Below are positions 7,820-31,148 of a stretch of DNA of 34,857 nucleotides, piece by piece (positions within the stretch are counted from its first letter, which is position 1; the number at the start of each line of letters is the position of its first letter). The stretch covers positions 1 through 34,857 of the IMG/VR virus record IMGVR_UViG_3300044939_000251; one strand, 5' to 3'. The position numbers and the translations under genes are program-made. A model generated the notes under the pieces. It searched no databases. It saw nothing but the letters and a program-made list of their open reading frames with translations, and was not told the DNA's origin. Origin of the DNA: a virus.

Positions 7820-9123
7820 CTTTGTTTAGACTGGTTTTTGACGATGCAGTTATTCCAAACATCACTTTGTTGCTAAATTATGCTAGTGGCTATGGGATGT
7901 TGGACTATCGTGCGGGCAACACAGAAGACACGATTGCTTTGTGTTTGCTTGGGGTATCCTATTCCGAAAACTTGAATCTGTTGCGAGACCTAGAATTTTT
8001 TGTAGAGAAAGTGCAACGTTGGCAAAAAAATCCCTCGTTTCCGCGAGTTTATCTGGAACGAGACTGGTCGGACAGCGGAACAGAATATTATCGGACACCA
8101 CTGGAGGACTTGAAAATTGTCTTTCCAGAGTCCTTTTACCACGACTTTCGGGGGCGCAAACCAGAATTAGATCTGGTTTTTCGCCATCCAGAATACTGGG
8201 AAAGCGAAGAAATAAGTTTGCAGTTGGGAATGGGAACAACTAGTCCGATAACTGTTAACAATGTAACAGGCAATCAAGGAGCAAAAGGTAATTACAAAAA
8301 TTACACGTATTACGATTATAATCTCTACACTGCGGATTTTCAAAGTGCGCTGCCTTATCCGTTGAAAATTTCGCTGACGTCTCAAGACACGGACGACATC
8401 GAAAAGGTCTGGCTATGCCTTACGCATTCGCAATCGACCGCCCCAGACCATGTACTTTCTGCAGAATCTGGGACGGGTGGGACAACTCTACCTGCTACAC
8501 CAGATTACAATTTGTATCAAGGGGGGCGATACAAACAATATAATGTTGCAACCAGCTGGAACACGTTGGGATCCTGGTCTATCGATCCGCAAATGTCGGA
8601 ATACGAAAGTTTAACCGTATGGGCACGCTGGTTGAATCCCTCGGAAGATGTCCTATTCGGGGTGCAATTATCGCAAGGTTTATTTCCGCTTACGGACTGG
8701 CGGCAGTTTTTTGCGCTGAACACGGAGTGGAACACGGTTGGGTTGTTGCGAGGCGAGATACTGAGCAATTTGTTAGATTATGCACCGTTTCAGCTTAATC
8801 TGCTTGGGTGGGCAAAGGATGTTACTACTGCGGACATAGACTATTTGGAACTATGGCCGACTCTGGACACGGTAGAATTGTTTTCCGCCAGTGGCCGTCC
8901 TTTGGCAAACGGGGAAAAACTGGTTCTGGACGGATCCACTCGGCTGGCATGGGTAGAGAATGCTTCTGGCAACATATTGGATCACTGGGTAATTAAGGGT
9001 TCTAGCAATTTGTGTTGGGTTCCGGGTCGGACTGCGAAAATAATTTATAAGTCCTATGGCTTTGGACATGTTGACAAAACCGTCCAGATGCAGATTAAAG
9101 CAAGGGCAAGGTATCGGGCATGA
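7816..9123 (+). CDS. Distal tail (Dit-like) protein with inserted carbohydrate-binding-like domain
   Basis: The gene directly follows the tape measure (4-nt overlap) and precedes the Tal-like gene, the standard Dit position at the tail tip. The N-terminal 140 residues and the last 90 residues (LANGEKLVLDGSTRLAWVEN, then a WVIKGSSNLCWVPG stretch) resemble the two halves of a tail-tube-like fold. Residues about 150-360 form an inserted beta-rich segment with many aromatic residues (LGSWSIDPQMSEYESLTVWAR), suggestive of a jelly-roll receptor-binding module. Large Dits with such inserts are known as evolved Dits. The insert's role is inferred from composition. Confidence 0.65.
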   Translation: MTLFRLVFDDAVIPNITLLLNYASGYGMLDYRAGNTEDTIALCLLGVSYSENLNLLRDLEFFVEKVQRWQKNPSFPRVYLERDWSDSGTEYYRTPLEDLKIVFPESFYHDFRGRKPELDLVFRHPEYWESEEISLQLGMGTTSPITVNNVTGNQGAKGNYKNYTYYDYNLYTADFQSALPYPLKISLTSQDTDDIEKVWLCLTHSQSTAPDHVLSAESGTGGTTLPATPDYNLYQGGRYKQYNVATSWNTLGSWSIDPQMSEYESLTVWARWLNPSEDVLFGVQLSQGLFPLTDWRQFFALNTEWNTVGLLRGEILSNLLDYAPFQLNLLGWAKDVTTADIDYLELWPTLDTVELFSASGRPLANGEKLVLDGSTRLAWVENASGNILDHWVIKGSSNLCWVPGRTAKIIYKSYGFGHVDKTVQMQIKARARYRA

Positions 9124-15002: not shown

Positions 15003-15923
15003 TTATGCTTCTACCATCGCAAGAGCCATTTCGAACGCCAGCTCTTTGGCGGCAGCGCGAGACCCAAACAGCATGGCTTGGGTGTTGTCTTTGTGCAAAT
15101 TTGCCCAATCGTAATACTCGGTGACGGCATCCAGCCATCCCTTGACTGACGAGGGGTTTACTGCAGTGCCGACCTCGCGCATTTTGCCGATTTCTTCAAT
15201 TCGGCGGGCATTGTCAGACTTTGGCAAGAGGGTCTGGAAAAAGTTTTTGGTTAATTCATCCCACTCGGACATGGAGAGAGGTTTTTCCGCCATTTTCTGG
15301 ATGGATCCCTCAAAGTATGTCCAAAGGTCTTGCATTCTTCCGACCCAACTTCCGAGAAAGTTTGTAAACTTTTCTGGGGTAAGGTTAAAATGTAGAATCC
15401 GAGAATCCATTTTCGACTGAAGCCGGGAACTTTTGTATGTATTCATACAAACGACCCGGACTGGAGCGACATGGACTTGGACAGATTCCCCTGGACGGTA
15501 AGGGAAAGACAAAATCGTATATTGGTTCCATTCTTCTCCCAGCAAGTCAACTCGTCCATGATCCGCGGTTATTACCATGCGGTCGCGGGTAAAGAATAGG
15601 GTTTCGGGGTTCCACCCCGTGACCCAGTCCCAAATTTGTGCAACTTGCAGGGGTGGGATAATTTGAAACAATTTGTCCACAAAACCAATGACTTCTTTTT
15701 CTTCGCTGGAAACACGGACAATGGCACGTTTGTCCGTTTCGAGATACTGCGAGGAGATCTGACGGTTTTCTGGGACTAGCACGTAGTCCCAGATTTGAAA
15801 GTCTATGTCCATTTCCGCCACGATCTCCGCAGCGGGGAGGGGTTCGGTTGAGACCGTGCCCAGCTTGTGCCAAGCTGGGACACGGAAACCGTAAAACCGT
15901 TTTCCGAAAATTTCATGTGCCAT
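15003..15923 (-). CDS. DUF932-type phage/plasmid protein (TIGR03299-like)
   Basis: The N-terminus (MAHEIFGKRFYGFRVPAWHKLG) and later segments such as HVAPVRVVCMNTY match the DUF932 family, common in phages and plasmids. Its biochemical role is not established. I chose ATG at 15923 because AAGGAG (complement of 15931-15936) stands 7 nt upstream; a longer frame running to 16043 would cover the neighbouring gene. The protein has 306 aa, typical of the family. It is the last gene of the early block, 17 nt from the shared terminator, and lies under the promoter module at 16382-16435. Confidence 0.8.
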   Translation of the reverse strand: MAHEIFGKRFYGFRVPAWHKLGTVSTEPLPAAEIVAEMDIDFQIWDYVLVPENRQISSQYLETDKRAIVRVSSEEKEVIGFVDKLFQIIPPLQVAQIWDWVTGWNPETLFFTRDRMVITADHGRVDLLGEEWNQYTILSFPYRPGESVQVHVAPVRVVCMNTYKSSRLQSKMDSRILHFNLTPEKFTNFLGSWVGRMQDLWTYFEGSIQKMAEKPLSMSEWDELTKNFFQTLLPKSDNARRIEEIGKMREVGTAVNPSSVKGWLDAVTEYYDWANLHKDNTQAMLFGSRAAAKELAFEMALAMVEA

Positions 15924-15934
15924 TTTAAATCTCC

Positions 15935-16339
15935 TTATTGGATAATTTGAACATTGGATTGCCAAAGTGTAGCCAAAGATCGCTGCAGAAGCAAACTGCA
16001 TTCCCAGCACCAGACTGTACTTTGGAACACGGATCCAGTGCATTTATACAAAACTGCATGGGTATCTTGGATGAATACATTGCAATTGGAAGCAACAAGG
16101 ACACCCTCGTATTGGGTTATGTTCCTTCCATTAACCATTCGGATTTGCAATCCCCCTAGTTCAAATTCTTTGTCTAGATCCTGGGGCATGTATTTTACAG
16201 CATCGGACTTTGTAAAAAAGTCCATGAAATGTTGGAGGGTAACAAAAAAGTTTAGAGGATTTTGGAAAATTTCCCCGAAAGAAGAAGCATCTATTTTAAA
16301 TCTGCGTAGAATTTTTTGTTGGTCTTTTTGGCTGTTCAT
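15935..16339 (-). CDS. Hypothetical protein with possible short beta-helix C-terminus
   Basis: A 134-aa protein preceded by GGAG, the first gene after the promoter module at 16382-16435 and 11 nt before the DUF932-type gene. The first 70 residues are helical (FFVTLQHFMDFFTKSDAVKYM). Residues 78-134 have a strand periodicity with Cys and aromatics (LVASNCNVFIQDTHAVLYKC, then CSLLLQRSLATLWQSNVQII) that could stack as a small beta-helix. I do not recognise the family. Plus-strand frames over the same bases lack ribosome binding sites and are rejected. Confidence 0.65.
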   Translation of the reverse strand: MNSQKDQQKILRRFKIDASSFGEIFQNPLNFFVTLQHFMDFFTKSDAVKYMPQDLDKEFELGGLQIRMVNGRNITQYEGVLVASNCNVFIQDTHAVLYKCTGSVFQSTVWCWECSLLLQRSLATLWQSNVQIIQ

Positions 16340-16972: not shown

Positions 16973-19433
16973 TTTCGCTCTCCTCTGTATTGAAATTTTT
17001 TCCAAACCTATAAAAGGTTCGCAATCTACCATTTCCGTCCCTGTCCATCTTTAATTGCACCCCTATGGTTGCTTCCAAATCTTGTTCTATTGACCGAAAG
17101 TGATTGGAAAATGCTACAACCGTCTTCCAATTCCACGGATACTTTCTAATCCGTGCAAATGACATTAGTTCTTGATACAATGCAGTTGGAGATGTCCATT
17201 CCGAAGCCCGTTGAGGAAATCGCTTAACCCAGTCAGACAGGATAAGGAATAGGGGGCTTTGCTCCGATAATTTGCGAGACTGTCGTTTTTCTAGTTTCCG
17301 CAGACCCGACTGTGCCAAGTCTTGTTGTACCACCTCTGGCGAAATTCCTTCTATTGCCCCCACCAAACGGGAAAAATCTGCCATACGCAATGGAACGGTC
17401 TCTGGTTCTGAGTTCTCCCGAATGCACCGAACCACCTGGTTCAATTTATCCAGCAAGTCACACCAAAGGTTGACCCAGTTTTGCTGGATTGCTTGCTGGA
17501 TAATGTATTCTGGCTTTGGGTGGTTTATCCGTGTTAGATCGATGGGCAAAATGCGGTCGTAGAATGCATCGTTCATGTTGTCTAAACTGACTGCAGTTAT
17601 AGCAACAAAACAATTTGGACGGATAACGTAAGTCTCGTTGGTATGATATAATTTTCGGAGTTCGATGGTCGACCCAGTGGCGATAGAATCCAAAATATTC
17701 GCAAGCCAATGCGACCTTGTTCCCTCTAGATTGTCCAGAGTCAAAATTTTGTGACTCGCCAAAGATGATCGTAGGGCGTCTGGCTTATCCCAAACAAACT
17801 CTAATACGTCCGCGTCTGGGTGTTCTACTAATTTCAAAATTCTCCTGATAGCAGTAGTTTTACCAGACCCAGGGGCGCCCATTATGGTAAGGATAGGTTT
17901 CGTTCTCATTAATTCAGGAAAAAATAAACTTAAAATCCAGCACCGCAGCAATTGTTCTTGTTCTTCTGGTTCTGCTAATGCAATTTGGGAACTTTGGAAA
18001 GATAAATCTGAAGTCAAAAATTCCCAAACATTTTGCGGAATCCAGTCCCAGTGGATTTCCTGCATTATGCGCGTATGAAAAAATACTTCTTTACCATTAT
18101 AAGATTCTTGAATAGTATCACCATCCAATATGAATACCTTATTCCCCGCAGGGTTAACATACAATTTCTGAGCTTTTACGTCCCAATGCGATAGAAGGTA
18201 GATTGATTTCTTTTCCGATTCATTTCTGATCAGTATATCTAAGTCTCTGTAAACTTGTTTGCCAAATTCATCGTTGCCGATGCCAAATTCTTTGTATAGA
18301 AAATATCGAAACCAAGAATCTTCTGTATTTACAATGTAATTATCAGGAGTCATCCAATAGCAAAGATCGTTTTCCGCATTGCGGAAAAGATTTCCGTTGT
18401 CTTTCAAGTAGCTATAAATAATTTGCACTGATCTACGTAGTTTTAAAAATGCTGGGATGCGGTCAATACGGATGCGATCTATCAACTGAATATGTTGTAG
18501 TGGCAATGCGTCAAATGCCAAAACTACCAAATCTTTCAACTTCAATGCTGGCAGCAAATCTGCCAACATACTATATCCTACGATTTGATCACCACGGTTG
18601 TAATTTTCTATTGTGTCTTTTACACATCCGAGACGATTTTCAATTTCTGTATCATTAGTTCGAGCACAAATTCTTTGAATTAACTCGAAAATTTGCACCG
18701 ATGTCCACCCTGTTTTCAGCAAAAAACCCGAAAGTGCCAACGCAAAATCATGTCTTATTCCTTCTACCCAGTGTGGTGCAATCAAATCTACTATTAAATC
18801 AACAATAGAGTTATCGAGATTGATCTGTAATTTTTCTGTTGGACAAAATTCCCAATCCCATTCTTCCCACGGAATAAACTTGCCTGCAGAATCGAATTCC
18901 CCGAAATTGCATCGGGCGTGAGTTATGGGATGGTATCCAAAGGGCATTTTGATTACATTGCCTTTACGTCCTGGAACCCATGCTTGCTTAGGATAATGTT
19001 CGACTTTTGTTGGAAAATGCAGCAGTTTTAAAATAGATTGCATCCATGCAATAGCTAAATAAGATTCCAATGATTTTTCTAGAAAAATCCAAACATGATA
19101 GCCTTTTTTGCCAGAGAATTCTAAATAAGACGGAATTCCCCTGTCTCGTAAAAATCCCTGCAGTTTTTGCGCATTTTTTGTGCATTGATCAATTGATCCA
19201 TCAAAATCAAATGCCATCCACTTGACAGTTCCATCATCTCCCAATGCGGAAATAGCTAATGTAAGCTCTCCGTTCAAATGTTGCATAATTAATTCAGGTG
19301 TAAGATCACCAGACTGCGGATAATAAGCTAGTTTAGATGCTTGATATTTCGCAATCGAATAATATCCACGATTAGGAAAAAATATAGCTATAAGACTTTT
19401 CGGGTCAGGATTTGACAGCGTGAAGTGTGCCAT
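16953..19433 (-). CDS. Primase-helicase: archaeo-eukaryotic-type primase fused to an AAA+ helicase
   Basis: An 826-aa protein likely to prime and unwind at the fork. The N-terminal AEP primase domain shows the metal-binding DFD (76-78), the SGKKGYHVWIF motif (about 107-117) and the KMPFGYH nucleotide-binding motif (about 162-168). A helical linker follows (about 225-290). The C-terminal ATPase has Walker A GAPGSGKT (519-526), Walker B-like KILTLDNLEG (about 562-571) and a conserved RILPIDL segment, as in phage primase-helicases. ATG 19433 is chosen for its GGAG 6 nt upstream. It overlaps the polymerase gene by 29 nt, implying coupled synthesis. Confidence 0.88.
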   Translation of the reverse strand: MAHFTLSNPDPKSLIAIFFPNRGYYSIAKYQASKLAYYPQSGDLTPELIMQHLNGELTLAISALGDDGTVKWMAFDFDGSIDQCTKNAQKLQGFLRDRGIPSYLEFSGKKGYHVWIFLEKSLESYLAIAWMQSILKLLHFPTKVEHYPKQAWVPGRKGNVIKMPFGYHPITHARCNFGEFDSAGKFIPWEEWDWEFCPTEKLQINLDNSIVDLIVDLIAPHWVEGIRHDFALALSGFLLKTGWTSVQIFELIQRICARTNDTEIENRLGCVKDTIENYNRGDQIVGYSMLADLLPALKLKDLVVLAFDALPLQHIQLIDRIRIDRIPAFLKLRRSVQIIYSYLKDNGNLFRNAENDLCYWMTPDNYIVNTEDSWFRYFLYKEFGIGNDEFGKQVYRDLDILIRNESEKKSIYLLSHWDVKAQKLYVNPAGNKVFILDGDTIQESYNGKEVFFHTRIMQEIHWDWIPQNVWEFLTSDLSFQSSQIALAEPEEQEQLLRCWILSLFFPELMRTKPILTIMGAPGSGKTTAIRRILKLVEHPDADVLEFVWDKPDALRSSLASHKILTLDNLEGTRSHWLANILDSIATGSTIELRKLYHTNETYVIRPNCFVAITAVSLDNMNDAFYDRILPIDLTRINHPKPEYIIQQAIQQNWVNLWCDLLDKLNQVVRCIRENSEPETVPLRMADFSRLVGAIEGISPEVVQQDLAQSGLRKLEKRQSRKLSEQSPLFLILSDWVKRFPQRASEWTSPTALYQELMSFARIRKYPWNWKTVVAFSNHFRSIEQDLEATIGVQLKMDRDGNGRLRTFYRFGKNFNTEESENERISV

Positions 19434-21204
19434 AAGTTTCTCCAACTTTTGCTTCCGTGATAAATGGAATTCCGAAAATGTCTTTCACTTCTAAGATTTC
19501 TTGAACTTCATCAAGATATTCTAGACAATCATGGTGAGCATCTAACAAAATTTCATCATGAATTAAGTTGACAATTCTCATGGGCAAATTGTTCTGTGTA
19601 ATCCACCGATATAAGCGCAAAACTGCAATAGACAACAAATCTGCACATCCGCCTTGAATTAATGCGTTTACCCCACGATACATTTTCGATAAATCATCTT
19701 CTCGCCACAGCCTGCCACTCCAGTAACGCAGATAACCTTTTTTCTCACATTCTTTAACTACTCCATTCCACCAAGTTTTAAGCGATGGAAAAGCACCCCA
19801 ATAGTCCTGCATGAGCTTTTTTGCTTCTTTAAATGAACAATTTAGTCGTAGTTGCAATGATTTTGTGCTCATACCATAAATTAATCCAAAACTAATTTGT
19901 TTCGCCCAATCCCTGTTTGCTTTTGTCACTGTCCCCCAAATCCGTTGCGCAATTTGAGCATGGATGTCCACATCTTCCGATAATAATGACAACATATTAG
20001 AATCTTGTGATAACACCCCAAACATACGGATTTCCATTTGTTTATAATCCGTCGAGATGAAAATGTTCCCAGGGGATGGAACAATATATCGACGAACATT
20101 AAATTCTTCTTTGCGTTGTATCTCTGTACTATTGAAAGTTGAATCTGTATTAGCTTGAGAAAAATAAAATGTCTGGTATTCGTCAGATAAGTTTTGCAAA
20201 TTCGGTTTACTCGATGAGAGTCTACCTGTCTTAGTTCCCGTAAGATTAAAATTCGAATGAATAATTCCGTTATGGCTATAGTTTAATAAATTCTCAAATG
20301 AGTTTTGTAATTTGTCTAATTCACGCAGTTTTAATACTGCCTTTGCTAGAGAATGATTTACTTTTTCTACTAAAAGCGAAGAAGATACCATTGTAGAATT
20401 GTATTTTTTTGATTGTTGACTTCTGCCTATTTCAATTCCTGTTAATGGATCAACAAAAGGATTAACAGGTCGTGGATAACCCATGTCGTCATACAACACT
20501 TTGGACAATTGCCTTGCGCTGCGCCAATTGAACCGTTTACCGACTGCTTCGAAAAACTGCTCTTCTAGCATTGCTCTTTCTTGCTCTACCAATGGGATGG
20601 CTTTGCGGACACCTTCCTCGTCTAATCGGATGCCATCTCGTTCCATCTGGTAAATAAGTTTCAAAAATTTCATGTCCTTTTCTACCAGCGAAAAGTTAAA
20701 CGGTTCAGACTGCAAAATTTCATTTAATCGCTCAAAAATTTCCCATGTTATCTGTACATCGTTTATTCCGTATTTAGCCACTTGTTCCCGCGACCAAGTA
20801 TGAATTCGTTTGTTTTTCGCTTCTGCCAAGATCTGTTCTTTGGTATCAGTGCCCAGAAAAACTTTTTCAACTTCCACAAGGTTTTTCTCAAGACGGGAAT
20901 CGTAGTGGTGCACCATTACCATCGTATCCCATAGTTTCATTTGCCAAACCAAATCGGGTGGCAGATGCAAAAAATGCAAGTCAAATTTTATGTTATGTCC
21001 GATGTAGTCTAAATGTAAGTTTCTGGACACCCACTCAACCCATTGGTCTGGTGTAGTCTCGAAAAGGTAAAACGGTCGATAAGTAGGAACGAAATACATT
21101 CCAACTCCAATTAATTTCTCTTTCCACCATTCCAAACCTGTGGTTTCAACGTCGATGACAACTGCTTTGTCATAAGGGTCTGGTGACGGAATCAAATCTC
21201 CCAT
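19405..21204 (-). CDS. DNA polymerase, family A, with 3'-5' exonuclease
   Basis: The replicative polymerase, 599 aa. The exonuclease domain keeps all four acidic residues: DVETTG (Asp18, Glu20), YIGHNIKFD (Asp75) and YGINDVQ (Asp149). The polymerase domain has motif A TDYKQMEIR (386-393), motif B with NRDWAKQISFGLIYG (430-443; Phe at the sugar-selecting position) and motif C HDE (549-551). There is no 5'-nuclease domain, as usual for phage enzymes. The ribosome binding site is weak; coupling to the gene ending at 21208 is likely. The primase-helicase gene follows directly. Confidence 0.95.
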   Translation of the reverse strand: MGDLIPSPDPYDKAVVIDVETTGLEWWKEKLIGVGMYFVPTYRPFYLFETTPDQWVEWVSRNLHLDYIGHNIKFDLHFLHLPPDLVWQMKLWDTMVMVHHYDSRLEKNLVEVEKVFLGTDTKEQILAEAKNKRIHTWSREQVAKYGINDVQITWEIFERLNEILQSEPFNFSLVEKDMKFLKLIYQMERDGIRLDEEGVRKAIPLVEQERAMLEEQFFEAVGKRFNWRSARQLSKVLYDDMGYPRPVNPFVDPLTGIEIGRSQQSKKYNSTMVSSSLLVEKVNHSLAKAVLKLRELDKLQNSFENLLNYSHNGIIHSNFNLTGTKTGRLSSSKPNLQNLSDEYQTFYFSQANTDSTFNSTEIQRKEEFNVRRYIVPSPGNIFISTDYKQMEIRMFGVLSQDSNMLSLLSEDVDIHAQIAQRIWGTVTKANRDWAKQISFGLIYGMSTKSLQLRLNCSFKEAKKLMQDYWGAFPSLKTWWNGVVKECEKKGYLRYWSGRLWREDDLSKMYRGVNALIQGGCADLLSIAVLRLYRWITQNNLPMRIVNLIHDEILLDAHHDCLEYLDEVQEILEVKDIFGIPFITEAKVGETYGTLHAVKS

Positions 21205-21207
21205 ATT

Positions 21208-21624
21208 TCAATTCTCATCATTAAATTTCCATTCTTCCCATGACAATTCCCATATTTTCTGATAATGCAATTTAGCGTACGCCCACGCAGTCATTGCAAG
21301 CGCATCCCATTCGTGTCGGGTTTGACGTTTTGGAATTAGATGCTTAAAAGGTCGTATTCCTTGCTTCCACTTCGCTGGCTGCACCAATGTTCCGTCCTTG
21401 CAATAATCTTTCAACAGTTCAAGCAGCCATACTTTGACCAATTTAGCAGATTTCAAAATCGGAAAATCTTCCATTACTAGAAAGGACTCAAATCCGTTTT
21501 TCTTAACCCATTCCAAAGCCAAGTCACTAGGATAGCAAAGAGTAAAATATCTAACAGTAGAAGCATCGTATTCTGCCAATGCAAGACCAGTCTGTAAACC
21601 GAGATCAACACCGATTATCCTCAT
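21208..21624 (-). CDS. RuvC-like Holliday junction resolvase / RNase H-fold nuclease
   Basis: A 138-aa protein with the RuvC-type pattern: first strand IIGVDLGLQTGLAL with Asp7, then LVMEDFP with Glu52, then RHEWDALAMTAWAY with Asp107 (His104 nearby). It is expected to resolve branched DNA before packaging. The gene lies between the DUF669-like gene and the polymerase, and GGAGG stands ahead of ATG 21624. It is shorter than bacterial RuvC but within the phage range. Confidence 0.8.
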   Translation of the reverse strand: MRIIGVDLGLQTGLALAEYDASTVRYFTLCYPSDLALEWVKKNGFESFLVMEDFPILKSAKLVKVWLLELLKDYCKDGTLVQPAKWKQGIRPFKHLIPKRQTRHEWDALAMTAWAYAKLHYQKIWELSWEEWKFNDEN

Positions 21625-22174: not shown

Positions 22175-22849
22175 TTAACCTCCATTTGTTCCGAATAAAT
22201 AATTTGAAATTTTGTCCCAGGTGCAATCCTGAATGGCGACAGGCAATTTGCCCGTCCGATCTTTGGTGACATGGGTTGCTAGGTTAAATATCGTCAGATA
22301 AACCACCTCCTGTTCTTTTTGGATTTTTGTGGTAAATGCGATAATATCCATCGCTGCGCAGACGGTTTTTGCAGTCATCTTTCCCGTCAGCGCAGGTTGA
22401 ATAATATCCTCGTCGTATGCTTTTTGGGTGTTTACACCTATGAGAACAATGTGTTTTCTCAAGTTATACAACTGATTTAGGAAAAAGTTTAGCTCGAACA
22501 GTATCTTTCCGTAGTCTCCCAGCGTCGGAACAAGGTCGTATGTCCGTTTGACCCCTGGGTAATCTACGATGGTCGACTCAATTAGGATTTGTTGAAACTT
22601 TGTCAAGCTATCCAAAACGACTGTCTGGTGCTCCGTGTCTCGTTTCAGCTCATCCAGCACTTGCCATGCTTGCCTTGCCGATTCAATCGGCACAAAATCT
22701 ACAGGCTTAACAACGCTGGCCAGACCTTTTTCCGTGTCCAAATAGATCGGATCTGGAAAGGTGCTGGCTAATCTGGTTTTCCCGACCCCAGACTCGCCAT
22801 AAAACAAAAATTTGTAATTTGTTGACTCAGGGTTGAATTTTTTGAACAT
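22175..22849 (-). CDS. RecA-like AAA ATPase (AAA_24 type)
   Basis: A 224-aa single-domain ATPase. Walker A GESGVGKT is at residues 18-25, Walker B-like TVVLDSLTK at about 75-83, and the polar HIVLIGVNTQK strand follows. Such proteins accompany DUF669 and nuclease genes in phages and are thought to act as recombinases or mediators in replication. ATG 22849 has AAGGAG 5 nt upstream; the GTG 15 nt earlier is less likely. The gene follows the PD-(D/E)XK nuclease gene with an 11-nt gap. Confidence 0.82.
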   Translation of the reverse strand: MFKKFNPESTNYKFLFYGESGVGKTRLASTFPDPIYLDTEKGLASVVKPVDFVPIESARQAWQVLDELKRDTEHQTVVLDSLTKFQQILIESTIVDYPGVKRTYDLVPTLGDYGKILFELNFFLNQLYNLRKHIVLIGVNTQKAYDEDIIQPALTGKMTAKTVCAAMDIIAFTTKIQKEQEVVYLTIFNLATHVTKDRTGKLPVAIQDCTWDKISNYLFGTNGG

Positions 22850-22860
22850 TTTGACTCCTT

Positions 22861-23556
22861 TCACTTATAATGGTAAGAATTTATACATTGTCGCAAGTAT
22901 TCACAATAAATACAATCACGCTGCACTGATCGATAAGGTAAGATTCCACGTTGCATTTGCTCATCCCAATACAACATTTCTGGAATTAGCAAATCCAATT
23001 CTTTCAGTAAACCTTTTTTCCAGCCGCTCTCGAACACGTTGCGGTAAAACATATATTTCAACATCGATTTTTTGAAATCAATGTTGATGTAATTTACCAC
23101 GAACCCCGCAACGTCTTGTTCAAAGTTCTCGGAATAAAGATAGGCATACACCCACCCCTGTGGGGACATAAGATACTCGTAAAATGCGTTGTTGCTGTTG
23201 GAAAATTTATGGTCGAGCACCCACAGGTCTCCGTTGCTGTCGGTGTACACCGCATCCAAAATTCCCGTCAGGACAACTGCTTCTCCCCCTAGAACAATCG
23301 AACATTCTAATTCCATTTCGGTTGCTAGAAAATTCCAATCTTCTGGGAAACGGATGGATTTTAGCACTTCCCAACGGTGGGTGGACGGAATATCCAGCCA
23401 TGTACCTTCCCTGATGTAATTGCTTAACAAGACATGGCCTTCTATCCCGATTTGCATCCATTCGGATGGCTCGGATGGGATCTGTTGAATGTAGCGAAAA
23501 TAATACTTGAATTTGCAACGATTGTATGTTGCCAGCCGAGATACGGAAATTCTCAT
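22861..23556 (-). CDS. PD-(D/E)XK exonuclease with probable Fe-S cluster (Cas4/RecB-like)
   Basis: A 231-aa nuclease. It shows His41 (GIEGHVLL), Asp101 (TGILDAVY) and the core WVLDHK (Asp115, Lys117). Cys14 (YNRCKFKYYF) and a C-terminal CIYCEYLRQC (Cys215, 218, 224) form the four-cysteine arrangement of Fe-S RecB/Cas4/AddB nucleases. Next to the RecA-like ATPase, it probably resects DNA ends for recombination. Its start overlaps the stop of the upstream gene by 4 nt. Confidence 0.85.
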   Translation of the reverse strand: MRISVSRLATYNRCKFKYYFRYIQQIPSEPSEWMQIGIEGHVLLSNYIREGTWLDIPSTHRWEVLKSIRFPEDWNFLATEMELECSIVLGGEAVVLTGILDAVYTDSNGDLWVLDHKFSNSNNAFYEYLMSPQGWVYAYLYSENFEQDVAGFVVNYINIDFKKSMLKYMFYRNVFESGWKKGLLKELDLLIPEMLYWDEQMQRGILPYRSVQRDCIYCEYLRQCINSYHYK

Positions 23557-23840
23557 AAGTCTCTTATCCCATCAGAAAACGACCGCTGATTTTGGATGTC
23601 GTAAACCACGTCCTGCATCAGGTCGTCCCAGGAGCTAAATTTGGATGCGTTGGCGATAGTTCTCACCCATGCAGGATACCATTCTTGCGGATATTCCTCG
23701 ACAATATGCTGGCACGCCAGAATTACAATCTCTGGAACGTGTCCAAACAACTTGTAAGTTGACAAGATAAAATCCTGGATAATCGATATTTTGTGCAATA
23801 TGGACTTATCTTGGATAAAGTTTTCTCCGAACTCGCTCAT
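23553..23840 (-). CDS. Hypothetical protein (95 aa)
   Basis: A helical, acidic protein rich in aromatics (IQDFILSTYKLFGHVPEIVILACQ is hydrophobic but not clearly membrane-spanning). AGGAG stands ahead of ATG 23840. It is coupled to the nuclease gene (4-nt overlap) and follows the Csx15-like gene by 10 nt. No family is recognised; it could partner either neighbour. Confidence 0.65.
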   Translation of the reverse strand: MSEFGENFIQDKSILHKISIIQDFILSTYKLFGHVPEIVILACQHIVEEYPQEWYPAWVRTIANASKFSSWDDLMQDVVYDIQNQRSFSDGIRDL

Positions 23841-23850
23841 GGTTGGTCTC

Positions 23851-24186
23851 CTATGCTTCTATAATTTCCGCCAGTTCGAACCGTATCAGATCGCCATCCA
23901 CCCTCTTAAGACGGATAATCCAATATTTGGTATCGCGTCTTTTGAGACGGGATGCCACCAGCCAAGCGATAAGGTTTAAAGACGGGGGGTTAATAATACA
24001 CGGTTCATCGGGAATTTGCTGTAACAACTCTTCGACTTGTGGTTCGAATGGTTCGTCCACTTTGAATTTAAAAGGAATATGCAAAACCTTTTCAATTTTC
24101 TCGCCACTAAAAGCAAGATCCAGGTATTCCTGGATCTGCTCTAGTTGTAGGGTTGTCAGTGGGTGGGCTAAATTGATAATTTTCAT
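23851..24186 (-). CDS. Csx15-like protein, candidate viral ring nuclease / type III anti-CRISPR
   Basis: A 111-aa protein whose pattern I recognise from CRISPR-associated Csx15: the opening IINLAHPLTTLQLEQI, the middle IPFKFKVDEPFEPQVEELL, the INPPSLNLIAWLVAS segment, and the end WIIRLKRV followed by RFELAEIIEA. Csx15 is a small accessory protein of type III CRISPR loci placed among candidate ring nucleases, which destroy cyclic oligoadenylate messengers. In a phage early operon it would plausibly blunt host type III CRISPR signalling. AGGAGG lies upstream of ATG 24186. No cas gene or CRISPR array is nearby. The similarity is from memory; the activity is inferred. Confidence 0.68.
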   Translation of the reverse strand: MKIINLAHPLTTLQLEQIQEYLDLAFSGEKIEKVLHIPFKFKVDEPFEPQVEELLQQIPDEPCIINPPSLNLIAWLVASRLKRRDTKYWIIRLKRVDGDLIRFELAEIIEA

Positions 24187-24200
24187 GCTATTTGCCTCCT

Positions 24201-25244
24201 TTAATCTCGGTATTTGTTGGTTTGGTAAGTTTCTCCCTCGACTTGCTTAAACTCCACATAATTATTGGGGTTGGTGCCAATAAACAATAAACCAGTGTAA
24301 TGATCGGGGTGGAACACTTCCAAAACCGGATTCCATGCGTCAATACGCCCATACGCACGGTCATCGGACACCTCGACCCATTTGATGGGATAGTTGAATT
24401 GTAATTTGCCCATCCAGTTGGGTAGGGTAACATCGTCTGGTAGGGTCGGACGGTAAGAATCCGTGTCGTATTTGACTGTGGCGATTACATCCCCAACCCG
24501 AATTTGATAGGATGACGACTGGTGCCATAATCGCTGGACACCCAATCGCCAATTTGAGAAGCGCCAATGGTTGGTTTCAAAATCTAGCACGATCTCGGTG
24601 GCCATGCCGCGAGTAAGATGACAATCTGGGTTGCGGCACGGATAATCGTCTGCGTGGGTAAATAGTAAATTGATGACCAGGGCATCCTTAGCGCAGGATA
24701 CCAAGTGATCAACCTTGATGGCGCGAGCGGACAGATGCCCGATGCTGAAGTAATCAAAACTCACCTCTGTCTCTCCCATGTATCCGATCGTAAGATGCCA
24801 GCGGTCTCGCCGCTCCGGGCGGGAGATCTTAAGCTTAAATGACCCGTCCAGTGTCCACCAAATGTGGTCAGACTCGCGAGCGGCATTGCGAAACTTGCGA
24901 CGTCGCAAGTCATTGTCAAGAATGTCAGGCGGAAGAAAAACCAGACACTCATCAATCTTTTTCTGAAGTACGTCCCATGCTTCAGAATAGCCTGGTGTAT
25001 AAAGCCGGGCGTTTTTGTGGTTTTTATATGAAACTGGGTCTAGCCCCAGCAAAAGCGCTAAAGTCTCCGCTGCATTTTCGCGGGTGATCTCTAGCTCCCC
25101 AACAACCCGCGCCAAAGTCAAGTTATAAGCCCCCATTTCTGGGGAATCGGTTTTCAGACTAACCCCAGTTTTGATTTTCTGCAGGGTCTCATAGCCCCAC
25201 TCCCGACTGATAACATTTAAAATTTGATGCTTTATGCTATTCAT
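24201..25244 (-). CDS. Hypothetical protein (347 aa)
   Basis: The second-largest unknown of the early block after none of its neighbours gave a match. The first 110 residues are helical; later parts are beta-rich with a DDYPCRNPDCHLTRG segment that could bind a metal. ATG 25244 is set by AAGGAG about 8 nt upstream (complement of 25253-25258); an earlier ATG at 25265 lacks a site. It lies directly upstream of the Csx15-like gene in the same operon. Base composition is like its neighbours. I do not recognise a family. Confidence 0.68.
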   Translation of the reverse strand: MNSIKHQILNVISREWGYETLQKIKTGVSLKTDSPEMGAYNLTLARVVGELEITRENAAETLALLLGLDPVSYKNHKNARLYTPGYSEAWDVLQKKIDECLVFLPPDILDNDLRRRKFRNAARESDHIWWTLDGSFKLKISRPERRDRWHLTIGYMGETEVSFDYFSIGHLSARAIKVDHLVSCAKDALVINLLFTHADDYPCRNPDCHLTRGMATEIVLDFETNHWRFSNWRLGVQRLWHQSSSYQIRVGDVIATVKYDTDSYRPTLPDDVTLPNWMGKLQFNYPIKWVEVSDDRAYGRIDAWNPVLEVFHPDHYTGLLFIGTNPNNYVEFKQVEGETYQTNKYRD

Positions 25245-25257
25245 TTTTTCATCTCCT

Positions 25258-25911
25258 TTATTCATTTTTTGTTATAGACATAATTATTCCAACTAATTTA
25301 TTATTACGATAAAGCAAAACAGGTGTCCGTTCACTGCAAATTTTTGGAATTTTAAATTGATAATTTTTTTCATGTAAGAATAGATAATATTCATCATTCA
25401 AATAAACTTCGTTATATTCATTTTTCAAAACTGCCACCATGAATTTTCCTAATTTTTCATACCTTATAAATTTAGCAAACTCATACGTGTCTGCATTTGG
25501 ATACAGCATCTTAATACTTTCATAAGAAATTTCTTTTATTGGTAACCGATCAATTTTTTCAGAATACCACTTTTGAACTTGTTCTGGTTCTAAATCTTCA
25601 AGTAAAAGATAACCATCACAGTAAATTTCCGGATGTCCTTTTACAATTACAATAGAAACATTATAAATCGACAAAGGATTCTTCCGCTTCTTCGGCTTAT
25701 ATTCCTTTTTCTGTTCTAAGGATTTCTTGTAGTTTTTTAATTCCAACTCAAATTTAATGAAAGCAGTCGAATAGTTGTTCCAGTCCTTTTTTGCAAGTTC
25801 ATAAAATTTTTCAACGCCTTCCAAGCCATGAAATTTTATTAATTCGTTCATGGCTTGAACCGTTGAGTATTCTTTTGATAATTCTATAAATTGATCTAAT
25901 AAATTATCCAT
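25258..25911 (-). CDS. Hypothetical protein (217 aa), lysine-rich
   Basis: Residues 1-90 are helical and charged and end in a basic stretch (KKEYKPKKRKNP); the rest is mixed with many Tyr residues (YLNDEYYLFLHEKNYQF). ATG 25911 follows GGAAGG at 7-nt spacing; a longer frame to 25965 would run into an intergenic hairpin and is rejected. The gene is more AT-rich than those around it, which may mean separate origin. No family is recognised. Confidence 0.65.
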   Translation of the reverse strand: MDNLLDQFIELSKEYSTVQAMNELIKFHGLEGVEKFYELAKKDWNNYSTAFIKFELELKNYKKSLEQKKEYKPKKRKNPLSIYNVSIVIVKGHPEIYCDGYLLLEDLEPEQVQKWYSEKIDRLPIKEISYESIKMLYPNADTYEFAKFIRYEKLGKFMVAVLKNEYNEVYLNDEYYLFLHEKNYQFKIPKICSERTPVLLYRNNKLVGIIMSITKNE

Positions 25912-27591: not shown

Positions 27592-28821
27592 TTAATATCG
27601 TTCTTCCACCGATGTGCGGACATCGACAGATAGCATTTCGCGAATTAAATCCCACAGCGAAAACTTACTTTTGCGCTGTAGCAGCGTCCACAGTCGAATT
27701 TCTACAGGGAAATTAGACAGCAAAATATGAATTCGGTTCAAATCCCTAGACGACCCCAACCGACGCACTCGGTACACGGCTTGGAAAAAGTGGTCGTAGA
27801 TAAGGGGCAAGTCCAAAAACACCAAATTCGGAACATCGGGCAAGCTAAACCCAAATCTTCCCACCCCAGGGGTGAAAAACGCCACGTCTACTTCTCCACG
27901 GTTGATTCTGTCAACGATAAACTGCCTGCTTTCTGGCGGAACGTCTCCGTGCAGGAACAACTTTTTCCCTGGGACGGCTTCCATTCGCTTTTCTAGGTCG
28001 ATCTTGTAAGATGTAAACACTACCACAGGCTTTTCCGCTGTTTGCAGCCAGCGGGACAGGTACTCCACTTTACAGCGCGGTAGATTTTGCCCCAGGATCT
28101 GCGGGTCGGACAACAACTGGTTTATGCGGATGGTTGCCGCCATAGCGTTCGGTAAGCGCTGCGAGGCTAAAACCAGTTGCTTGTATGCTTGCCGACAAAC
28201 TTCCCAGGTGCCGGCATCGATTTCTACCTTGTGCTCGTAAAATTGCAAGTCGGGCACTTTGCTGTCTGGATAGATGGTATCGGAATATAGCACGTGTGGC
28301 AAACTTTTCAATTCTTCCAGGGACGATTTGTTATCGTAAATGTGAACACCCCATTGATCTTGGTACATTAAGCAATGCTCTGCTACGAAACGCCAATAAG
28401 ACCGATACTTTCGCGGATACAGCAAATGCAACTGTGCCCAAAGGTCGTCAGCGTACTTGGAAATCGGATTGCCAGAAAGCAGCCAAATGTACTCTGGCTT
28501 GTTTTGCTCCACCCAGCGGAATAGACGCTGATAGCGCTGCGTTTTGCGGTTCTTTATTAGGATGCTCTCATCGCAGACTAGCACTTTTGCATGGACTTCT
28601 GTATAACTGGAATCGTACGATTCCACGGTTGCCGTATGCGGACAAAATTCTAAATTGCGATGCCACCAAGTGTGTAAACTGAGGGGAGCGAGGATAAGTA
28701 CGGATTGAGGCAGTAAATTGGACAAGGCTTCTATAACCAGCGAGGTTTTACCCATGCCGGGCGGGATCCAAACAAGCATTTTCTTTTCGGTAAGCAGAGC
28801 ATCAACGAGGTTTTCTAGCAT
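27592..28821 (-). CDS. SF2 (SNF2-like) helicase
   Basis: A 409-aa ATP-dependent helicase or translocase. Motif I PPGMGKTS is at residues 20-27, a DES variant of the DEAH box at 84-86 (VLVCDESILIKN), motif III LLSGNP at about 113-118, motif V near VAFFTPGVGRFGFSL, and motif VI HFFQAVYRVRRLGSS. The N-terminal Q-type region is very short. It is the first gene of the early block and the nearest to the divergent control region. No Shine-Dalgarno is visible before ATG 28821 (minus-strand AATCACCTC), so translation may depend on another start or on a weak site. Confidence 0.85.
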   Translation of the reverse strand: MLENLVDALLTEKKMLVWIPPGMGKTSLVIEALSNLLPQSVLILAPLSLHTWWHRNLEFCPHTATVESYDSSYTEVHAKVLVCDESILIKNRKTQRYQRLFRWVEQNKPEYIWLLSGNPISKYADDLWAQLHLLYPRKYRSYWRFVAEHCLMYQDQWGVHIYDNKSSLEELKSLPHVLYSDTIYPDSKVPDLQFYEHKVEIDAGTWEVCRQAYKQLVLASQRLPNAMAATIRINQLLSDPQILGQNLPRCKVEYLSRWLQTAEKPVVVFTSYKIDLEKRMEAVPGKKLFLHGDVPPESRQFIVDRINRGEVDVAFFTPGVGRFGFSLPDVPNLVFLDLPLIYDHFFQAVYRVRRLGSSRDLNRIHILLSNFPVEIRLWTLLQRKSKFSLWDLIREMLSVDVRTSVEERY

Positions 28822-29425: not shown

Positions 29426-29821
29426 ATGGCCAAAGAGCGTAGAAAAATCAGCGATCGGGTCTGGAACCACCTTTGGAACGAGCTGATGGAAGGTAAAATA
29501 ATGACGCCATCGGGGCGTAAGAGGCGGTTCCAGGTAGTGTTGCAATCGCTGGTAGACCTGATGACCTATGGCAAAGCGATCCTACCACGCCATCCAGACG
29601 ACCCCTCTGACCAGATTGTGCTAACAATTAGCACGCGGGAGTGGGCTAATCTGGTGTTAGAGTGGATCCAGATCCAACAGCAGACCTTGTTACAGTCCAC
29701 GGTAGCACCTGACCATGTAAATTCTGTTTGGATTATTCAAGACACCACCCCAAGTGCGGTGGTGTCTGATTCCTTTTTGCTTCCACCGAACGGCAATGGG
29801 CATGGAGAGACCCCAGAGTAA
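29426..29821 (+). CDS. Putative terminase small subunit (131 aa)
   Basis: The first gene of normal size in the late block, directly ahead of the large terminase, where small subunits (packaging-site recognition) normally lie. The N-terminus is basic and helical (MAKERRKISDRVWNHLWNELM, then PSGRKRRFQVVLQSLVDLM), compatible with DNA binding; the C-terminus is a flexible Pro/Asn/Gly tail. No Shine-Dalgarno is obvious before ATG 29426, so it may depend on reading of the 23-codon frame ending 14 nt upstream. No family match is recognised; the call rests on position. Confidence 0.5.
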   Translation: MAKERRKISDRVWNHLWNELMEGKIMTPSGRKRRFQVVLQSLVDLMTYGKAILPRHPDDPSDQIVLTISTREWANLVLEWIQIQQQTLLQSTVAPDHVNSVWIIQDTTPSAVVSDSFLLPPNGNGHGETPE

Positions 29822-31148
29822 GCAGTGGATAAAGTTCGTTTTGCCCATCCAGACCGAGGAAAGTCTGGAAAAGTTCCTCTGGTACGCCTGGGGAGTGCGC
29901 ATTCCGAAGGTTTCCGTGTGCGAGGAACACGTGTCTCCGTGGAAAGCGTTTTGCGATGCGTTTTTTGCGCGCAGCAGCATCCAAGTTTGGCACGCGTCCA
30001 GGGGTTTTGGCGGGAAATCGTTCTTGTTGGCGGTATTAGGACTGACGGAAGCCATTTTGCACAAAGCTAATGTGGCCATATTGGGGGGTTCAGGGGAGCA
30101 GTCCAAGCGTGTGCACCGATACATCCAGCATTTTCTAGACCTTCCCACTGCGCCGAAGTATCTATTGCGCAGCGACCCATCCCAAACGGAGACGAAATTC
30201 TTGGGTGGAAACTCCATCCAAGCACTTATGGCAAGCCAGCGCAGTGTACGCGGACCCCATCCGCAGCGATTGCGCATGGACGAAATTGACGAGATGGATC
30301 TGGAAGTGCTAGATGCAGCACTAGGGCAAACATTAGCCAGCCGAAACATCGCCGCAAACACGGTTTTATCGAGCACTTGGCAAAATCCATCTGGAACCAT
30401 GTCGGAAATTATGTATCGCGCAAGGGAACGGGGTTGGCCAGTGTACCAATGGTGCTACAAGGAGACCTCGAACCCCATCGATGGATGGTTGTCCCAGTCC
30501 GAAATTGAACGCAAAAAGCACGAAATTCCTGATTTAATGTGGGAAATCGAATACGAACTGCAAGAACCAGCACCTCAAAATCGAGTGTTTTCCGATGAGG
30601 TGCTACAGCGAGCATTTGCATTGCGAGAAGAATACTACGAGGGTGCACTCAACCAGTTTATCCAAATAGAGCCACCCGACCCTAATGGCTTGTACGTAAC
30701 AGGGGCAGACTGGGCACGCAAACAAGACTACACGGTAATTGTTACCATCCGCATAGATTGCGATCCGTTCAAATTGGTCACTTTCGAGCGCCGAAACCAA
30801 CAGCCGTGGAGACTGATGCTGGAGCGATTAGACTACGTCAACCAGCTTTACCAGCCCGTAGCCAGCACTCACGATGGTACAGGCTTGGGAGACGTGGTAA
30901 ACGAGTATCTCACCACCGCAGTCCAGCCATTTATTATGGTCGGACGAGACCGACAAGAGCTGCTTTCCCGTGCGATTGTGTGGATTCAGAATGGCAAGGT
31001 GGTGTTTCCGTACATAAAATGGCTGTATGATGAATTGAAATACTGCACGATGGATAATGTTTTTGGATCTGGACACTTGTCAGATGCGTTGGCAGCAATT
31101 GCTTTAGCATTGCACCAAGTCAAAACAGGTGTCGGCATTTACGTATAG
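29796..31148 (+). CDS. Terminase large subunit
   Basis: The packaging motor and nuclease. From ATG 29796, Walker A-like ASRGFGGKSF is at about residues 67-76 and Walker B RLRMDEIDEMD at about 158-168. The C-terminal RNase H-like nuclease shows VTGADWARKQDYT, THDGTGLGD and a final SDALAAIALAL, supplying the acidic residues. The start is uncertain: ATG 29796 or 29802 fits homologous lengths, and neither has a clear ribosome binding site; an ATG-like start at 29754 would add an unconvincing cysteine-rich head. It overlaps the small subunit gene by 26 nt. Portal follows after 8 nt. Confidence 0.9.
   Translation: MGMERPQSKQWIKFVLPIQTEESLEKFLWYAWGVRIPKVSVCEEHVSPWKAFCDAFFARSSIQVWHASRGFGGKSFLLAVLGLTEAILHKANVAILGGSGEQSKRVHRYIQHFLDLPTAPKYLLRSDPSQTETKFLGGNSIQALMASQRSVRGPHPQRLRMDEIDEMDLEVLDAALGQTLASRNIAANTVLSSTWQNPSGTMSEIMYRARERGWPVYQWCYKETSNPIDGWLSQSEIERKKHEIPDLMWEIEYELQEPAPQNRVFSDEVLQRAFALREEYYEGALNQFIQIEPPDPNGLYVTGADWARKQDYTVIVTIRIDCDPFKLVTFERRNQQPWRLMLERLDYVNQLYQPVASTHDGTGLGDVVNEYLTTAVQPFIMVGRDRQELLSRAIVWIQNGKVVFPYIKWLYDELKYCTMDNVFGSGHLSDALAAIALALHQVKTGVGIYV

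Follow-up and report, generated by a model that had tools for sequence, protein, structure and literature searches.

Type III CRISPR immunity raises the alarm through a molecule that the bacterial protein Csx15 removes. The ligand, cyclic tetra-adenylate (cA4), lies between two Csx15 dimers, the lower contributing S9 and H11 and the upper H82, R116, R120 and R123 (PMC13148439). In PfCsx15 the H11A substitution abolishes sponging and R123A weakens the protein; in CliCsx15, H13A kills catalysis and H90A abolishes cA4-induced multimerisation together with nearly all activity (PMC13148439). The orphan PfCsx15 sequesters cA4, and over-expressed CliCsx15, itself slow as an enzyme even at full length, counteracts cA4 defence in vivo (PMC13148439). 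Two papers of 2025-26 found Csx15 in no phage genome, and from this absence it has been argued that Csx15 may have no anti-CRISPR use, a host-side dampening role being proposed instead (PMC13148439). Several viral systems offer points of comparison with the phage protein described here. AcrIII-1/Crn2 (DUF1874) shares its proposed role, the viral removal of cA4, but is a fast enzyme of unrelated sequence. AcrIII-2/Crn5, a SAVED ring nuclease, is likewise virus-encoded and sandwiches cA4 head to tail, its motif-I position being a His (PMC13148439), like His8 of our protein; it is, however, a filament-forming SAVED monomer, whereas the protein described here holds one half of such a site. Csx16 and Csx20, present in 6 phage genomes (PMC12409355), are also cellular ring-nuclease families captured by phages, although the families differ. 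Acb2-type sponges sequester an immune nucleotide stoichiometrically, the mode proposed for PfCsx15, but belong to an unrelated family and target other signalling systems.

The stretch analysed (the window) comprises 34,857 bases of a record from IMG/VR, whose records are predicted viruses. A csx15-like gene with a 111-aa product lies on its minus strand (23851..24186, stop codon included). Direct reading of the sequence revealed a Shine-Dalgarno AGGAGG (24195..24200, minus strand) 8 bases before the ATG, which is placed 14 bases past the stop of the preceding gene. The protein matches the NCBIfam model NF040560 (CAS_Csx15) with 47.6 bits (E 1.8e-12; cut-off 35) and the PADLOC Csx15 model at 4e-7. 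With an HMM of 80 cellular homologues it was recovered at E 4e-18, against E 1.6 at best for 3,000 shuffled sequences, so the resemblance is no chance effect. Profiles built with the window protein or its paralogue find the PDB entry 9teu, 'csx15'. CAS_Csx15 is its sole NCBIfam match, by which an identity as Csx20 or Csx16 is ruled out; PHROGs gave no match and neither did Pfam up to E 10, DUF1874 (the AcrIII-1 family) included. The first-pass annotation had proposed Csx15 from the motifs NLAHPLT, EPFEPQVEEL, INPPSL and RFELAEII, all of which are found in the protein, and its family assignment is borne out by the profile, structure-model and comparative evidence. The window protein is a member of the Csx15 family, and the case for membership from sequence is strong.

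The AF2 model of the window protein (pLDDT 95.4) displays the strand order of Csx15, β-α-β-α-β-α-β-β, with strands at residues 2-5, 33-36, 63-66, 88-95 and 103-110 and helices at 12-25, 47-55 and 71-82. It thus presents a five-stranded CARF-like fold with adjacent final strands β4-β5. Foldseek comparison with the PDB gave no match at E<=0.001, either for this model or for that of a second family member from a related phage (see below), and only weak CARF/SAVED matches were seen, the best CARF match of the window protein being 7ygh (TM 0.50, E 0.27).

A closer inspection of the cA4 site was based on an alignment with the PDB chains 9teu (CliCsx15) and 9tet (PfCsx15), read with a numbering offset of 7 that was confirmed at S9, H11, H13 and H90, and with the 80 cellular homologues. 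In this sample, which leans to typical members because of the preference of the scan patterns for LAE-x-G and EVAE, H11/H13, H82/H90, R116, R120 and R123 are invariant (80/80). The window protein retains the motif-I histidine as H8 (NLAH, residues 5-8; 24163..24174, minus strand), equivalent to H11 of PfCsx15 and H13 of CliCsx15. It also keeps the INPPSL strand and, as F103, the Phe/Tyr position of the last strand. The S9 position is occupied by A7, an alanine being common there in cells too. In contrast, Lys82 takes the place of H82/H90, a histidine in 80/80 cellular and 5/5 full-length viral copies, so that the LHGR histidine is lost, and the EWQT loop is missing. So is the C-terminal arginine helix, which carries the cA4 phosphate contacts R116, R120 and R123, the chain stopping at residue 111. 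Judged from these residues, the protein keeps one face, part of the lower set, of a two-faced, filament-forming cA4 site. The earlier suggestion of a viral ring nuclease is thus not supported, given the loss of H82/H90 and of the three C-terminal arginines, even though the motif-I histidine is kept. Because only part of the Csx15 functional signature is present, we file the protein as a divergent, shortened phage homologue of Csx15 and not as a ring nuclease. A Csx15-like domain was also seen at the C-terminus of CbCash (PDB 9ylu, residues 168-290; E 8.7e-29 to the Csx15 profile); with Gln at both histidine positions, it is a sensor-like domain in a larger protein.

Whereas cellular Csx15 is found at CRISPR loci or as an orphan gene, the window copy belongs to a phage early operon, in agreement with the setting first proposed. 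This operon, on the minus strand, starts with a helicase (27592..28821; phrog_62 9e-51), followed by small ORFs, a 354-aa protein without family match (24201..25265), csx15, a 95-aa ORF (23553..23840) and a Cas4/RecB-like phage-type exonuclease (22861..23556; phrog_1218 4.4e-14, PADLOC Cas4 3.4e-9). Further downstream are a Sak4-like ssDNA annealing protein (22175..22864; phrog_124 1.3e-37), a 185-aa ORF, a RuvC-like resolvase with a weak match (21208..21624; phrog_159 0.0038), a family A DNA polymerase (19405..21204; NCBIfam DNA polymerase I 7e-87, under the curated cut-off) and an 830-aa protein that by eye is primase-helicase-like. The plus strand carries structural-looking genes and the large terminase subunit, a virus hallmark (29754..31148; phrog_2 9.3e-13). 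The polymerase also has a sub-cut-off match to the aminoadenine-incorporating DpoZ (3e-43, 148 bits vs 500), and a TIGR03299-like phage/plasmid protein (8.3e-16, under cut-off) is encoded at 15003-16043 and conserved in the relatives G662, G663 and G669 described below. No tRNA was detected in the window. Its DNA gave seven short matches to 400 Chloroflexota genomes, none of them in a repeat array, and a terminase search of Chloroflexota and Armatimonadota returned one remote match.

Two models revealed no Cas10 in the window or in the other Csx15-bearing virus records (one check for G662), and the window contains no CRISPR array. The first-pass statement that no cas gene or array is present therefore holds for Cas10 and the array but needs qualifying for the exonuclease at 22861-23556, which resembles Cas4 although it fits phage exonuclease families better. 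By comparison, Csm1 was above cut-off in 5 of the 8 cellular Csx15 genomes tested, and Cas10 or an array was present at 42 of 80 cellular csx15 loci within the fetched DNA, a minimum given the shortness of many contigs. Thus csx15 is here virus-encoded, as the terminase indicates, and stands apart from cas genes. A host CRISPR fragment mis-called as viral is ruled out by the terminase, the 36-kb syntenic relatives and the absence of Cas10.

Several related phages were compared with the window. A 16.6-kb contig (L002) is about 87-91% identical to it, yet shows 0 differences across the 336 bp of csx15. The gene is enclosed in a tract of 848 bp (23707..24554) with a single mismatch (24234), flanked by sequence about 87% identical; such a tract amid roughly 13% divergence indicates that the csx15 stretch was exchanged recently between phages. 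Among the relatives searched, the 354-aa upstream neighbour is shared only with the record of L002, where its homologue is 78% identical. L002 carries a second Csx15-family gene without counterpart in the window (7919-8323, plus strand, 134 aa; NF040560 77 bits, E 1.4e-21), the AF2 model of which (pLDDT 94.7) has the Csx15 element order plus a C-terminal helix. This protein has E at both histidine positions and retains 2 of the 3 C-terminal arginines, its losses being complementary to those of the window protein. In a third phage, G662 (36.3 kb; terminase 79% identical), the same locus holds a short Csx15, separated by one 121-aa ORF from the conserved 91/95-aa ORF and the exonuclease that lie downstream. 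This copy shares 45-47% identity with the window protein, scores 32.5 bits with NCBIfam, just below the cut-off of 35 (local HMM E 1e-16), and shows the same residue losses. The short form of Csx15 thus persists at the same locus in a diverged phage copy. The gene is missing from the relatives G663 and G669 (terminases 72-75% identical), and in G669 an 87-aa ORF and the exonuclease directly follow the helicase; the small downstream ORF is kept in relatives with and without csx15. This absence marks csx15 as an accessory, optional gene of the early operon.

Profile-guided scans of IMG/VR revealed five unrelated full-length viral Csx15s (134-170 bits to NF040560), at L004:10001-10381 (the same protein is present on a second contig, L005), L006:10001-10378, L007:3549-3923, L088:4904-5287 and L089:10001-10381. 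All five keep H11/H13, H82/H90, R116, R120 and R123, and none of their records matched the Cas10 models. The L006, L007 and L088 records contain terminase matches; the L006 record also has a baseplate subunit, and the L004 record exonuclease VIII, Sak4 and SSB. No virus hallmark was found in the record of L089, which is the least secure as a virus. Placed on a tree with cellular Csx15s, the five viral rows require five label changes, at least four of them forced by supported branches, so several independent captures are likely; this scatter of intact copies over the cellular tree suggests that viruses have captured Csx15 repeatedly. The branch of the window protein is very long (3.9 changes per site). 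Judged by their residues, the five full-length proteins are the more promising candidates for a ring nuclease or a sponge. Neither the window protein nor the further Csx15 sequences had a real match in 50,697 cultured-phage records or 72,556 plasmids. The cultured-phage result agrees with the published negative; the viral copies sit in metagenomic viruses.

On this evidence, a cA4-binding or counter-defence role is the most likely one for the window protein. Our preferred reading, to which we give a probability of about 55%, is that this 35-kb phage carries a shortened Csx15 as an optional early gene blunting type III CRISPR signalling, as a cA4 sponge or cap. As a CARF dimer, the protein would use the face it retains, with motif-I His8, Pro9 and Phe103, to bind cA4 and withhold it from the cA4-activated effectors of the host. 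Alone, it would build no canonical Csx15 filament, since it lacks what the next dimer would have to supply, namely the LHGR histidine and the helix of C-terminal arginines; the published mutants likewise point to a protein that forms no filament and has little activity as a ring nuclease. It would then bind cA4 stoichiometrically, as a lone dimer serving as a sponge, or cap the Csx15-type assemblies of the host, fast ring-nuclease catalysis being unlikely. Without the H90 and R123 positions, its affinity for cA4 may be poor.

The strongest competitor, in our view unlikely, is a descendant of Csx15 that has given up cA4 handling, having been captured from a host and then repurposed (e.g. for binding a protein or another nucleotide) or left to decay. 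The loss of the second histidine, of all three otherwise invariant arginines and of the EWQT loop is consistent with it, as is the very long branch; however, the reading frame and ribosome-binding site are intact, and both short copies, at 45-47% identity, have the motif-I His and the shortened form in common. Pure decay is the less likely version, because copies so diverged share the short form; nor does the confidence of the AF2 model (pLDDT 95) speak for it. Quite improbable is a cap or poison subunit, the lower face of which would pair with cA4 bound at the arginine face of a partner, either a host Csx15 or an effector with a Csx15 domain, and so end the filament or block effector assembly. 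The division of the site between two dimers (PMC13148439), of which the window protein has part of the lower set, would fit such a role, and CbCash is an example of a larger protein that includes a Csx15-like domain. A canonical cA4 ring nuclease, acting as a fast viral anti-CRISPR like AcrIII-1, is more doubtful still: His8 takes the position of catalytic H13 in the alignment with CliCsx15, which neutralises in vivo, but Lys82 stands at the H90 position, the arginine helix is missing, and turnover is slow even in the full-length enzyme.

It is conceivable, though we regard it as a long shot, that the two-faced site is split between proteins of the window type (lower face) and the second copy of L002, which would form a closed hetero-tetramer locking one cA4 without a filament; where only the first is present, a host Csx15 might be the partner. 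If true, this would be a new mode of viral sponge.

Together, the window copy and the five further viral copies suggest that viruses use Csx15 to silence the type III CRISPR alarm. Five unrelated full-length viral Csx15s, and a shortened form maintained across diverged phages, undercut the argument from absence in phages (PMC13148439), and a slow or non-catalytic Csx15 as a viral sponge becomes directly testable. As few type III counter-defence genes are known besides AcrIII-1, the five full-length candidates are useful in themselves, and the short form provides a naturally occurring separation of the two halves that make up the shared cA4 site.
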